A DNA stretch of 64,000 nt from Celeribacter ethanolicus. Its GTDB lineage: Bacteria; Pseudomonadota; Alphaproteobacteria; Rhodobacterales; Rhodobacteraceae. This document shows, piece after piece, positions 32,731-37,741 of this stretch; the first letter of the stretch is position 1, and every line of letters starts with the position of its first letter. The stretch covers positions 186,001 to 250,000 of the forward strand of contig NZ_LRUC01000018.1 in assembly GCF_001550095.1 (NCBI RefSeq), read 5' to 3'. Made by a program: the position numbers and the translations under genes. The notes beneath the pieces were generated by a model that saw only the letters and a program-made list of their open reading frames with translations, did no database searches and was not told where the DNA came from.

Positions 32731-32859
32731 CCTCTTGCGCCCCTCGCGCGCATCTCATAAACACCCGCTCACGCCAAGCGCGGTCCGTTCGTCTATCGGT
32801 TAGGACGCCAGGTTTTCAACCTGGAAAGAGGGGTTCGATTCCCCTACGGACTGCCACTT
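32731..32859 (+). repeat. Left arm of a 129-bp inverted duplication containing tRNA-Glu
   Basis: This segment is repeated in inverted orientation at 33231-33359. The arms contain 51 bases of upstream sequence plus the whole tRNA-Glu; I see a single substitution in the upstream part (T at 32744 where the other copy has the equivalent of G). Such near identity implies recent duplication or ongoing gene conversion. Confidence 0.85.
32782..32856 (+). tRNA. tRNA-Glu (TTC), copy 1
   Basis: The 75-base sequence folds as a tRNA: acceptor GGTCCGT with ACGGACT (G-U first pair), D-arm GTCTATCGGTTAGGAC, anticodon stem CCAGG/CCTGG around TTTTCAA with anticodon TTC, T-arm AGGGG-TTCGATT-CCCCT, discriminator G and encoded CCA. 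It reads glutamate GAA/GAG codons. Confidence 0.96.
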
Positions 32860-33230: not shown

Positions 33231-33359
33231 AAGTGGCAGTCCGTAGGGGAATCGAACCCCTCTTTCCAGGTTGAAAACCTGGCGTCCTAACCGATAGACG
33301 AACGGACCGCGCTTGGCGTGAGCGGGTGTTTATGAGATGCGCGCGCGGGGCGCAAGAGG
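33231..33359 (-). repeat. Right arm of the 129-bp inverted duplication
   Basis: Reverse complement of 32731-32859, including the second tRNA-Glu and its upstream 51 bases, so that both copies keep the same promoter-proximal sequence (ATCTCATAAACACCCGCTC). Confidence 0.85.
33234..33308 (-). tRNA. tRNA-Glu (TTC), copy 2
   Basis: Identical in sequence to copy 1, on the opposite strand, with anticodon TTC, G-U first acceptor pair, discriminator G and encoded CCA. The two genes point towards each other across the 371-bp spacer. Confidence 0.96.
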
Positions 33360-33465: not shown

Positions 33466-34497
33466 TCAGCCCCTCACCCGATGCTCGACAGGGTCATTGA
33501 CATGGTCGCTCACATGACCCTTGTGAACCTTGGGATCGAACATGGTTGCCTGCGCACGGCCCTCATATTTAGAACTGTAGAGCGCCAGATCCGCATCGTG
33601 AATCATCACATCGGCATTGGGCGTCTCATAGAACTCGGTCGTCGTGACGCCCACGGAGCCGGAAATCCGGCACAGCTCATCCTGATAGGGGATCGGCTCC
33701 TCGAGCCGCGTGATGATGCGTTCCGCCGTACGCATAAGCCCGTCGTGCTCCATGAACTTGTTGAAGATCAGGATGAATTCATCCCCGCCCACGCGCGCGA
33801 CCATATCGTCACCCCGGGTCTCTTCGAGCAGGATCTTCGCCACCCGCTGCAATACCGTGTCCCCCGCCGCATGGCCCAGCGTGTCATTGACCGATTTGAA
33901 GTAATCGAGATCGAGATGCATGATCGCAAACGGCACGCTCGAGCGCAGCATCCGCTCCATCACATGATCCATCGCCCGGCGATTCTTCAGCCCGGTGAGC
34001 GTATCGGTATAGGCCTGCTCCTCGGCGGCGACCTTGGCGCCTTGCAGACGGGCGTTGAGCTGTTTCGTTTCCTCGAGGACGGCCGACTTCGCCTCCACCA
34101 GATAGAGCATCTCGATCGCAAGATCGGTATGGGCGAAATCTCCGGAGGTCAGCCGGTAATCCGCCACCGCATCGACAATCGAAATCCCGAAAGACAGGTT
34201 CAAAAGGTTCAGCCCCGTCCCGGGGATTGCCGCCGCCATGCCCTTGAGTGGTGTGGAAATCCCCGTGAGAAAATTGAGATAGAGCTTCGTCCCCAAAGGA
34301 ATAGGCCCTTCGCCGCCACCCCGCCCGTTGTCACGCACGGAGAACACATCGGCGATCTGCGCTCCGATCAGGGTGTCAGGTTCGCGCAGCTTCGCCAGCG
34401 TCGGCGCGACATAACGGATCTCCCCCGCATCGTCATACATCAGGCTCATCGGCATGAAGGCAATCAGCGCTTCCGGATCGAATTTCATCGCACTCAC
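33466..34497 (-). CDS. Diguanylate cyclase partner of an H-NOX protein
   Basis: The 343-residue protein has an N-terminal sensor domain (residues 1-125, beginning FDPEALIAFMPMSLMYDD and including GTKLYLNFLTG) that resembles the heme-NO-binding-associated (HNOBA) domain, a short coiled-coil linker (about 126-160), and a GGDEF domain. The active site VGGDEF is intact at 236-241, and the inhibitory I-site RxxD (RGDD, 228-231) lies at the correct five-residue distance, so the enzyme should make cyclic di-GMP and be feedback-inhibited. Its ATG overlaps the stop of the H-NOX gene in ATGA. In H-NOX/cyclase pairs the H-NOX protein controls the cyclase in response to nitric oxide. Confidence 0.88.
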   Translation of the reverse strand: MSAMKFDPEALIAFMPMSLMYDDAGEIRYVAPTLAKLREPDTLIGAQIADVFSVRDNGRGGGEGPIPLGTKLYLNFLTGISTPLKGMAAAIPGTGLNLLNLSFGISIVDAVADYRLTSGDFAHTDLAIEMLYLVEAKSAVLEETKQLNARLQGAKVAAEEQAYTDTLTGLKNRRAMDHVMERMLRSSVPFAIMHLDLDYFKSVNDTLGHAAGDTVLQRVAKILLEETRGDDMVARVGGDEFILIFNKFMEHDGLMRTAERIITRLEEPIPYQDELCRISGSVGVTTTEFYETPNADVMIHDADLALYSSKYEGRAQATMFDPKVHKGHVSDHVNDPVEHRVRG

Positions 34498-35093
34498 AGC
34501 TCTCCCCCGATCCGTTCCGACAACTCAAAGGTCCGACCCTCGGCATAGGCCGCTTCGAGCAGGTTGATCGTGATGATTTCTTCGCCGGAATCCATCCAGC
34601 CCTGATGTTCTAGAAACACCAGAGCGCCATAATCGTCCGCCATCGCCCGCATCACCCCCACCATCGCATAGCCGAACCCCGGCATCGAACTGAGGCAACT
34701 GAGCCGGAACGTGCCGTCGCCATTGTCCTCGACCCGCAAGGTCGGCATCTCGAGATCCGGCAGGGCCAGTTTCGCCCGCCCTTCCAGATCGTTGAGCGAG
34801 AACAGGAATTCCGTGAAATTCTCACCGCCGAAGCGCAACAGCCGGCGTATCGCCTCCACATTCGGATGCGACACGAGATAGGTTCCGAGATCCTCGAGAA
34901 AGGTTTCGACAGGCTTGTGTAACTGGCGTGCCGCGCGCCCCAGAACGTCAATCGTCAACTGATCGGGATAGCTCAGCATGGCCTCGAAATTGTCAAATCC
35001 GAGATCGGCGCTTTCCGCCACCGCCTGCCAGGTCGTCCCCCCGTATGTATCGCGCATGAAACACTGAATCGCGCGATTGATCATCCCATGCAT
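34494..35093 (-). CDS. H-NOX-like protein lacking the heme ligands
   Basis: The 199-residue protein has the H-NOX fold by sequence: MHGMINRAIQCFMRDTYG at the N-terminus, TFLEDLGTYLVSHPNVEAIRRLLRFGGENFTEFL, and PGFGYAMVGVMRAMADDYG near the end. The heme-binding residues are missing. The proximal histidine position (H102 in the Thermoanaerobacter protein) is E104 in SLNDLEGRAKLALP, and the Y-x-S-x-R heme-propionate motif reads C133-x-S-x-M137. It therefore probably does not bind heme in the usual way, although related Rhodobacteraceae sequences may share this change. The start MHG is chosen since H-NOX proteins begin M-x-G. First gene of a two-gene unit with a diguanylate cyclase. Confidence 0.8.
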   Translation of the reverse strand: MHGMINRAIQCFMRDTYGGTTWQAVAESADLGFDNFEAMLSYPDQLTIDVLGRAARQLHKPVETFLEDLGTYLVSHPNVEAIRRLLRFGGENFTEFLFSLNDLEGRAKLALPDLEMPTLRVEDNGDGTFRLSCLSSMPGFGYAMVGVMRAMADDYGALVFLEHQGWMDSGEEIITINLLEAAYAEGRTFELSERIGGEL

Positions 35094-35104
35094 GACGGCC
35101 ATGT

Positions 35105-35126
35105 CTCCCAGTACTACATGTGGGAG
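35105..35126 (-). promoter_or_regulatory. Hairpin covering the H-NOX ribosome binding site
   Basis: On the minus-strand transcript CTCCCA-CATGTAGTAC-TGGGAG forms a perfect 6-bp stem, and its 3' arm is the purine-rich TGGGAG that is the only Shine-Dalgarno candidate (11 bases before the chosen ATG at 35093; two bases before an in-frame ATG at 35102). The hairpin could limit translation of the H-NOX/cyclase pair, or the repeat could be an operator in DNA. Confidence 0.45.
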
Positions 35127-35223
35127 TGTTACGGCCTGTCCCTTAAGAAATTACCAATACTGCCGAAACAGTGTCCGCCATCTTCCTAAAATTAATCCGA
35201 TTTCTGGTACTTTTTGCGAAATT

Positions 35224-35931
35224 CTACCGCCCGGACAACCACTCCGGCAGGTCCGCGACACTCTCGAGCACCACCTCCGCATAGGGCGCAAGCGCCGCCG
35301 CACCCGCCACGCCGGTCAGCACCGCCACCGGGATCATCCCGGCCCGCGCCGCCGCCTCCAGATCGTGCAGACTGTCGCCCACCATGACACAGGCCCCGGC
35401 CGCCACCCCCAGCCGATCTGCCGCACCAAGGCACGGGCCCGGCTCCGGTTTGCCGCCGAACCCGCTGTCATAGCCCACCACCGTGCCGAAAAACTCCGCC
35501 ACGCCCATCCTGCGCAGATGATCGTGCCCCGCCGCCTCGAAATCGTTGGTCACGACGCCAAGCGCCAGTCCGCGCGCCCGCAATGCCGCACAGGTCGTGG
35601 CCAGCCCCGCCACCGGGGCCGGGACGAAGGCCGCCGGGTCCGGCTCCAGCCAGGACAGGAGCCGATCCGGCGCGGCTTCGGGGAAAAACGGGCTGAGCAG
35701 GTCCAGAACCTCCTGCGGCGTGCCCGCGATCACGGCGCTGTCCGGGTGAAACCTCTGCACCCCGCGGTCGAATCCCAACGCCTCGGCCACGGCAGCGCTC
35801 AGCCCCGCATCCGCACCGCAGATCCGCGCGATCACCGAGGCCGCCCAAGGCCCCCAGCTCGCCTGAAAATCCATCAGCGTGCCGTCCTTGTCGAACAGCA
35901 CCGCCCCAATCTCGCTCCCGATTTCGCGCAT
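35224..35931 (-). CDS. HAD superfamily phosphatase (phosphoglycolate phosphatase-like)
   Basis: The 235-residue protein carries all HAD motifs: FDKDGTLMDF (nucleophile aspartate near residue 14), GVVTNDF, GGKPEPGPCL with the lysine, and VMVGDSLHDLEAA. The helical cap between motifs I and II is of the type found in Gph and related phosphatases. It probably dephosphorylates a small metabolite, with phosphoglycolate as one candidate. It follows DUF3572 by nine bases on the same strand. The substrate cannot be read from sequence. Confidence 0.85.
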   Translation of the reverse strand: MREIGSEIGAVLFDKDGTLMDFQASWGPWAASVIARICGADAGLSAAVAEALGFDRGVQRFHPDSAVIAGTPQEVLDLLSPFFPEAAPDRLLSWLEPDPAAFVPAPVAGLATTCAALRARGLALGVVTNDFEAAGHDHLRRMGVAEFFGTVVGYDSGFGGKPEPGPCLGAADRLGVAAGACVMVGDSLHDLEAAARAGMIPVAVLTGVAGAAALAPYAEVVLESVADLPEWLSGR

Positions 35932-36361: not shown

Positions 36362-37741
36362 ATGGCGGGCAGAATTCTGATCGCTGACAACGTGCCGACC
36401 AACAGGATCATCCTCAAGGTCAAGCTCGCGTCCGCCTTCTACGACGTCTCCCAGGCCACAACCGGCACGGCGACGCTCGCACAGGCGCGCGCAGAGCGGC
36501 CCAACCTCATTCTCCTCGATGTCGATCTCGGCGACATGTCGGGCTTCGAGACCTGCGCCCGGCTCAAAGCCGACCCGCTGACCGCGCATATTCCCGTCGC
36601 CATCCTCACCCCCGCGCAAAACCCCGAAGCCAAGATCGCGGCGCTCAAGGCCGGTGCCGACGAGGTGCTGTCGAAACCGCTTGACGAATTGACCCTCACC
36701 GCGCGGGTCCGCGCCCTGATGCGCGCCTCCGCCACTTCCGAAGAACTGCGCCGGCGCAACGAAACCGCCCGCGCGCTGGGGTTTTCCGAGGCGCAAAGCC
36801 AGTACGAGACTCCCGGAAAGATCGCTCTGATCGGAGCGACCACCGAGGAGGCGATGAGCTGGCGCGCCGGGCTCAAGGGCATGGTGCATGACGAGATTGC
36901 CATCGAACGCGCCGATCACCTGCTCGAAACCATCTATCATGGCGAGATTGCCGATCTCTACGTGATCTCCACCCGCGCCGGAGGCGACGGGCTGCGACTG
37001 ATCTCCGATCTGCGCGCCCGCGAAGCCACCCGTGGCGCCGGGATCGTCGTCGTCCATGGCCCGCAGGACCGGCGCGAGGCGCTGATGGCGCTCGATCTCG
37101 GGGCCAACGATCTGATCGCCCGCGGTGCCGATCCGGAAGAAATGGCCCTGCGCCTGCGCAGCCAAATGCGGCGCAAGAAGGAAACCGACCTGCTCAAACT
37201 CACCCTCGACGAGGGGCTCCGCCTCGCCACCCGCGACAAGCTCACCGGGCTTTACAACCGGCATTATGCCCTGCCCCATCTCGACAAGATCGCTCGCGAA
37301 GCCCGCGCAACCGGCCAGCATTTCGCCCTCATGCTGATCGACATCGACCGGTTCAAATCCGTCAACGACACCTGGGGCCATACCACGGGCGACGCGGTTC
37401 TGATCGAAGTGGCTAGACGGCTCGCGGACAATCTCCGCGGCATGGATCTGGTGTCGCGCTTCGGCGGTGAGGAATTCCTGATCTGCATGCCGATGACCTC
37501 TCTGATGGAGGCCCGCGCCGTCGCCGAACGGCTGCGGGCCGGGGTCTGTGCCCGTCCGGCCGCAATCGCCCCCGATACGACCCCGATCAGCGTTTCCGTC
37601 TCCATCGGCCTCGCCATGGGGGGCGACCAAGGCGCCGCGACACCCGATATCGACACGCTTCTGGCCATCGCCGACCGCGCGCTTTACGCCGCCAAGGCCG
37701 AAGGCCGCAACCAGGTCACGCTGGGTTCCTACGCCGCCTGA
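36362..37741 (+). CDS. pleD: PleD-type response regulator diguanylate cyclase
   Basis: The 459-residue protein has the domain order REC-REC-GGDEF of Caulobacter PleD. The first receiver has the phosphoacceptor D53 in LLDVDLGDMSG and K105 in SKPLDE, with one acidic-pocket residue changed (ADN instead of the usual DD). The second receiver (about 152-270) lacks a clear phosphorylation site and should act in dimerisation. The cyclase active site is GGEEF at 368-372 with an intact inhibitory RxxD (RGMD, 359-362). AAGGA precedes the ATG. It makes cyclic di-GMP on phosphorylation and controls the motile-to-sessile change in relatives. Confidence 0.92.
   Translation: MAGRILIADNVPTNRIILKVKLASAFYDVSQATTGTATLAQARAERPNLILLDVDLGDMSGFETCARLKADPLTAHIPVAILTPAQNPEAKIAALKAGADEVLSKPLDELTLTARVRALMRASATSEELRRRNETARALGFSEAQSQYETPGKIALIGATTEEAMSWRAGLKGMVHDEIAIERADHLLETIYHGEIADLYVISTRAGGDGLRLISDLRAREATRGAGIVVVHGPQDRREALMALDLGANDLIARGADPEEMALRLRSQMRRKKETDLLKLTLDEGLRLATRDKLTGLYNRHYALPHLDKIAREARATGQHFALMLIDIDRFKSVNDTWGHTTGDAVLIEVARRLADNLRGMDLVSRFGGEEFLICMPMTSLMEARAVAERLRAGVCARPAAIAPDTTPISVSVSIGLAMGGDQGAATPDIDTLLAIADRALYAAKAEGRNQVTLGSYAA

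Follow-up and report, generated by a model that had tools for sequence, protein, structure and literature searches.

The window, i.e., the stretch of 64,000 nucleotides of Celeribacter ethanolicus that was analysed, encodes on its minus strand an H-NOX-fold protein devoid of the proximal heme histidine and a diguanylate cyclase whose gene shares 4 bp with that of the H-NOX protein. On the sequence comparisons and structure models given below, the most likely interpretation, held with slightly more than even confidence as a whole, is that the H-NOX protein would act independently of heme, as a partner that keeps the cyclase in check. The pair belongs to the H-NOX/cyclase operons of Group 5, a Rhodobacteraceae type that is already in print. 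Published work is cited by PMC number, from the available parts of each paper.

The H-NOX protein and its partner cyclase

The protein belongs to the H-NOX (HNOB) family by its Pfam profile and by its predicted fold (Table 1). By sequence, the closest solved structure is Nostoc Alr2278 (6.6e-20). The AlphaFold2 model (mean pLDDT 91.1, from 81 aligned rows including that of the window) has a Nostoc H-NOX as best Foldseek match (E 2e-13; query TM 0.77-0.79 over the Nostoc entries). The gene can start either at ATG 35102 (longest open reading frame) or at the in-frame ATG 35093, i.e., the Met of M-H-G, which was chosen in an earlier sequence-only reading of the window; E104 of that reading corresponds to E107 in the 202-residue numbering used here.

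Table 1. Features of the H-NOX/cyclase locus (positions in the window)
Feature	Position	Strand	Basis or remark
Conserved upstream box TTGG-N7-TTAA, putative CtrA-like	35143-35157	minus	shares spacing and right half-site with CtrA boxes
H-NOX-fold protein (HNOB) without proximal His	34494-35102	minus	Pfam HNOB E 5.8e-25; ORF of 202 aa
G73, mapped to an H-NOX hinge glycine	34884-34886	minus	kept in 203/203 members
Glu107 at the proximal heme-His position	34782-34784 (codon GAA)	minus	alignment to Nostoc H105, gap-free nearby
Pro120, conserved proximal Pro of H-NOX	34743-34745	minus	kept in 203/203 members
C136-x-S138-x-M140 replacing Y-x-S-x-R (heme propionate clamp)	34683-34697	minus	alignment to Nostoc Y134/S136/R138
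G149, mapped to an H-NOX hinge glycine	34656-34658	minus	kept in 203/203 members
Diguanylate cyclase: HNOBA-like/PAS domain, long helix, GGDEF	33466-34497	minus	GTG start; Pfam GGDEF E 1.4e-38
HNOBA-like (sGC-type PAS) domain, approx. residues 1-125	34123-34497	minus	family Pfam matches; profile matches 2p04 and 6pas_B
RxxD inhibitory site (RGDD), five residues before GGDEF	33805-33816	minus	
GGDEF active-site motif of the cyclase	33775-33789	minus	

The sequence-only reading had placed a Glu at the position of the proximal histidine and C-x-S-x-M at that of Y-x-S-x-R, and both assignments are borne out by the alignment to Nostoc H-NOX. It had also stated that the fold motifs are kept, which agrees with the HNOB match and with the presence of P120, G73 and G149. 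Among the features of heme-binding H-NOX proteins, the axial histidine and the clamp are absent; the proximal Pro and the two mapped glycines are present. It must be noted that the assignment of G73 and G149 as hinge glycines is a mapping made in the present analysis, the hinge mechanism being that of PMC7108781. Histidines are found only at positions 5, 62, 79 and 166, and a scan of the whole 202-residue protein gives none between 79 and 166. There is therefore no shifted histidine near the proximal site; this candidate, considered in the earlier reading as what would speak against it, is rejected.

The cyclase sequence reads RGDD-MVARV-GGDEF, so that both the active site and the inhibitory site are intact, as the earlier reading had said in addition to noting the gene overlap. 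By its motifs, the protein is predicted to be an active, product-inhibited diguanylate cyclase. In its AlphaFold2 model (mean pLDDT 93.3), a helix (residues 126-162) lies between the N-terminal domain and the GGDEF domain. The N-terminal domain had been described as an HNOBA-like sensor. The copy of the window gives no Pfam HNOBA match up to E 1, but 62 of 77 aligned cyclases of the family match HNOBA (PF07701) with an E of at most 0.01. A profile of 30 cyclase N-domains has hits to the histidine kinase entry 2p04, a PAS domain (3.3e-7), and to region 205-347 of the soluble guanylate cyclase beta subunit (1.1e-5). The matches thus come from the family and the profile, not from the window's own copy, the domain of which is probably a diverged HNOBA.

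With a PAS-type input domain, a helix and a GGDEF domain beside an H-NOX protein, the operon therefore resembles a split analogue of soluble guanylate cyclase. The domain order is the same and the PAS-type input domain matches; in contrast, the H-NOX is on a separate chain and the output domain is GGDEF, not of the guanylate cyclase type. The alpha subunit of soluble guanylate cyclase itself has a heme-less H-NOX.

Distribution, selection and history of the proximal site

A relative of the H-NOX protein, paired with the cyclase, is present in all 20 genomes searched of the genus (nearest named relatives: Celeribacter and Pacificibacter), always without the proximal histidine, and this absence is therefore not due to chance. 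The residue at the site is Glu in 17 of them and Val, Lys and Gln in one each; Glu is thus no special ligand. In four of these genomes (L002-L005) there is, in addition, a canonical H-NOX that has both His and Tyr-x-Ser, showing that heme-type and His-less proteins coexist.

At the family level, the group profile matches 287 of 394 genomes, at least two of which (G023 and G312) hold canonical copies only. The aligned set contains 227 group loci and 24 canonical loci, and 203 group members remain after removal at 97% identity; the residue counts were drawn from some 180 of the 287 genomes, chiefly the best and the weakest scorers, plus the genus and named loci. All 24 canonical copies have the proximal histidine, vs. 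only 16 of the 203 group members. In the other 187, the site is occupied by Pro (137), Glu (13), Gln (9), Arg (7), Asn (7), Gly (4), Ala (3), Ser (3), Lys (2), Val (1) or Thr (1). Positions 105, 134, 136 and 138 are variable among the 203 members, and the position of the clamp Tyr is Cys in 125 of them. Each of the two mapped glycines is invariant, as is the proximal Pro. Two further marks of the group are nearly invariant: R-R-L-L-R-F-G-G, immediately ahead of the helix carrying the proximal site, and M-A-D-D-Y-G, located at the end of helix 143-158.

The association with the cyclase is constant. A cyclase homologue is next on the same strand, directly downstream, in all of the 227 loci; GGDEF is present in 226 of these cyclases and RxxD at the right spacing in 222. 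The overlap of 4 bp is found in 100 of 203 loci, the start codon nearest to the stop being taken. The pair also occurs on replicons recorded as plasmids (L253, L254), e.g., in Phaeobacter sp. G2 (120 kb) and Paracoccus denitrificans HAMBI_2443 (1.73 Mb).

The dN/dS ratio of the H-NOX gene is 0.03-0.12 (Nei-Gojobori; seven relatives with finite dS) and that of the cyclase gene 0.07-0.27 (eight relatives), the latter being above the former in 7 of 7 shared pairs; these ratios are rough, since the finite dS values are high (0.68-2.63). For the H-NOX pairs with L011 and L021 and the cyclase pair with L021, dS is saturated and gives no ratio. The H-NOX protein is clearly maintained by purifying selection. 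The loss of the heme ligands, and an in-frame stop within the H-NOX match in two genomes of the family, G055 and G195 (L148), could otherwise be taken to mean that the gene is a decaying remnant kept only through its coupling to the cyclase gene. This is the least credible of the explanations considered: it is disfavoured by dN/dS values below those of the cyclase in every shared pair and by the near invariance of R-R-L-L-R-F-G-G and A-D-D-Y-G over 203 members.

Purifying selection would also be expected if the vacated pocket bound another ligand, e.g., a hydrophobic metabolite, a different tetrapyrrole or a lipid, in which case the protein would be a true sensor using the same hinge motion. 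The invariant mapped glycines and proximal Pro support this view, as do positions 74 and 144, which we take to be distal-pocket residues: the former is Leu, Ile, Val or Met in 186 of 186 His-less rows and the latter Val in 145 of 186. The metabolic phenotype reported for the hnox deletion of P. denitrificans (PMC12582929) points in the same direction. On the contrary, there is no constant polar or charged substitute, and positions 105, 134, 136 and 138 vary. Another ligand is thus a possible explanation, with well under an even chance. The family comparison also bears on the proposal of the sequence-only reading that the sensor must use another ligand, another cofactor or act as a fixed regulator. 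The anchoring residues are absent and the cyclase is intact, so that another ligand, or none, has to be considered; the Glu itself does not fit the part of a special ligand. We know of no ligand of the His-less H-NOX pocket.

The 16 rows that have the histidine are scattered on the tree, which requires at least 12 changes. On a smaller tree, built without the column of the site itself, 13 His changes are counted vs. a mean of 14.6 (range 11-16) after shuffling. A single His clade is rejected (AU p 0.002, tested after the first tree had been inspected). When the tree is rooted on distant canonical H-NOX proteins, the first branches are non-His; with a weak root and low support at many nodes, this is no more than a hint that the histidine may have been regained. 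If it were so, the family would have given up heme early and kept the hinge, its members being gas-independent subunits, or sensors of non-gas ligands, of a split cyclase of the soluble guanylate cyclase type, and the few His-bearing proteins, including that of Dinoroseobacter shibae, would be repeated secondary returns to heme and NO sensing. This scenario is a tentative one, and rather improbable at present. Two other positions vary along with the histidine, namely position 8 (Ser in 13 of 16 His rows vs. 54 of 186 His-less rows) and position 136 (Trp in 7 of 16 vs. 12 of 186), both counts being uncorrected for relatedness and for many tests.

Upstream region and neighbourhood

The pattern TTSG-N7-TTAA occurs in 81 of 200 upstream regions (150 bases), mostly about 54-64 bases before the start, vs. 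0 of 200 in-gene controls; the pattern was chosen after k-mers had been inspected, and the control is GC-rich coding DNA. The exact sequence TTAA-N7-TTAA is found in none of the 200 upstream regions. With one mismatch it is found in 39 of 200, vs. a mean of 5.6 in mononucleotide shuffles, and the window's own upstream region contains none. The CtrA box quoted in PMC7232146 has the matching spacing and right half, and PMC9143464, citing others, states that CtrA regulates rcc02629 of Rhodobacter capsulatus. In Dinoroseobacter shibae, hnox and dgc1 are induced by quorum sensing (PMC6473078), and the predicted CtrA site named in the available text of that paper is that of dgc2, not of dgc1. On these sequence grounds, the H-NOX/cyclase pair may be under CtrA control.

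An inverted repeat, CTCCCA-N10-TGGGAG (35105-35126), separates the conserved box from the start of the H-NOX gene, and a similar one is found upstream in L015 and L024. A PleD-like cyclase (receiver domains and GGDEF; 36362-37741) is encoded on the other strand about 1.3 kb from the pair, and a HAD-family gene (35224-35931) lies between them. Two tRNA-Glu (ttc) genes in opposite orientation (32782-32856 and 33234-33308) are located just downstream of the cyclase gene.

Comparison with known systems and probable mode of action

According to PMC8738867, Group 5 is characterized by less than 10% His at the proximal site, mostly Pro, no conserved Cys, hinge glycines that are kept and a trigger given as unknown. 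The family described here has 7.9% His (16/203) and 67% Pro (137/203) at the site, no Cys common to all members (the commonest Cys column reaches 125/203) and a GGDEF gene as neighbour in 227 of 227 loci. The P. denitrificans H-NOX is matched by tblastn with E 3e-37 and is 43% identical; in PMC8738867 a network cut-off of 1e-47 was used. The earlier view of the pair as a poorly described signalling unit is thus only partly right: the trigger is undescribed in the available text of PMC8738867, but the unit is in print and loss of the histidine is the rule (187/203). In PMC7108781 the histidine is said to be absolutely conserved in the 598 sequences gathered around Vibrio cholerae H-NOX, and its loss is therefore a mark of the Group 5-type family.

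One of the closest systems is HnoX-DgcA of P. denitrificans (Pden_3719/3720), which has in common with the window's pair no proximal His, no conserved Cys, the hinge glycines and an overlapping GGDEF gene. The site differs, being Glu in the window and Pro in P. denitrificans; the copy of strain HAMBI_2443 (L253) likewise has Pro and a cyclase gene overlapping by 4 bp, and is 43% identical to the window's protein. According to PMC5588039, the axial His is absent from the H-NOX of P. denitrificans and, by citation, from that of R. sphaeroides, and the P. denitrificans gene overlaps dgcA. In the same paper, attached growth (biofilm) is partly impaired in the hnoX mutant, which lacks BapA, and the dgcAB mutant overproduces biofilm; its authors propose that H-NOX inhibits DgcA, with NO stimulating the inhibition, and NO also acts without H-NOX. 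In the work that gave the metabolic phenotype of the hnox deletion, c-di-GMP could not be detected (PMC12582929).

R. capsulatus rcc02630/rcc02629 is similar, with a homologue beside a c-di-GMP gene (PMC7232146). Its loci (L048 and L049) have Gln at the site, no His and a GGDEF neighbour, and the proteins are 43-44% identical to that of the window; PMC7232146 nevertheless counts this homologue among the HNOX NO-sensor proteins.

Heme could still be bound, with NO being sensed through another axial residue or none. An argument for this comes from D. shibae, the H-NOX of which is listed as a heme/NO sensor inhibiting Dgc1 (PMC8846402), upon NO binding according to PMC8846402, PMC7232146 and PMC6473078, all from Bedrunka et al. 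2018. The copy in a putative D. shibae genome belongs to the same family (profile E 7.9e-60) and has the same two-gene layout. Unlike the protein of the window, however, it keeps the proximal histidine (D-D-L-H-D-R), and it would thus be an exception representing the minority state of the family, i.e., the 16 members of 203 that keep His. The clamp is gone in the window's protein, and since the site residue varies (E/V/K/Q in the genus, mostly P elsewhere), there is no constant replacement ligand. Nitrite reductases (defined by a NirK score above the cut-off or by a d1 match with E under 1e-100) are found in 9 of 15 His-bearing genomes vs. 20 of 60 His-less genomes, a difference that is not significant (two-sided Fisher test uncorrected for the tree, p 0.077). 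The window's own genome has a best NirK match of 48 bits, which does not reach the cut-off. Its best d1 match scores 28 bits, above the 25.5 of Pfam, but is weak and short, covering positions 9-94 of 368. Sensing of NO by bound heme is thus unlikely here.

V. cholerae H-NOX provides a precedent for an H-NOX fold that signals without heme (PMC7108781). It differs in having retained the proximal His and in sensing through a zinc site of three Cys, a site that is absent from the window's protein. A similar cysteine/zinc redox switch would be very unlikely in the present case: only C14 and C136 are present, not the three-Cys zinc set of groups 2-4, Cys counts range from 0 to 7 in the family with none in 15 of 202 rows, and PMC8738867 describes Group 5 as without conserved Cys. 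This candidate is rejected.

We thus return to a heme-independent partner that restrains the cyclase. The protein would lack classical heme ligation and would not be a classical NO sensor. It may be a regulatory subunit that attaches to the cyclase at its HNOBA/helix part and lowers the output of the enzyme, as the P. denitrificans genetics suggest. Among the Foldseek matches of the H-NOX model is entry 2kil, a Shewanella H-NOX mutant in which the His is changed to Gly and which reportedly mimics the inhibitory state. Classically, NO displaces the proximal His and frees helix F (PMC7108781, also for the hinge), so that a His-less protein may mimic the released state and resemble, by default, the released, inhibitory H-NOX. 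Its set-point would then be fixed by the level of expression, or by a trigger other than a gas that works on the retained hinge. The following points count against this interpretation: (i) the invariance of the hinge positions suggests a switch that is still mobile, in poor agreement with a locked state; (ii) it is still proposed in PMC5588039 that NO stimulates the inhibition; (iii) in D. shibae NO is reported to act through a His-bearing H-NOX.

In this family, the annotation «heme NO-binding» is thus unproven for some nine tenths of the proteins, and the NO result of D. shibae is not transferable, as it stands, to the His-less members. What a His-less H-NOX responds to was posed as an open question in 2022 (PMC8738867), and no answer was found in the available parts of the papers cited. 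The window's pair adds to this group a clade with Glu at the proximal site. The pair being present in most of the sampled genomes of an abundant family, knowledge of the signal would account for c-di-GMP input in a large number of bacteria.
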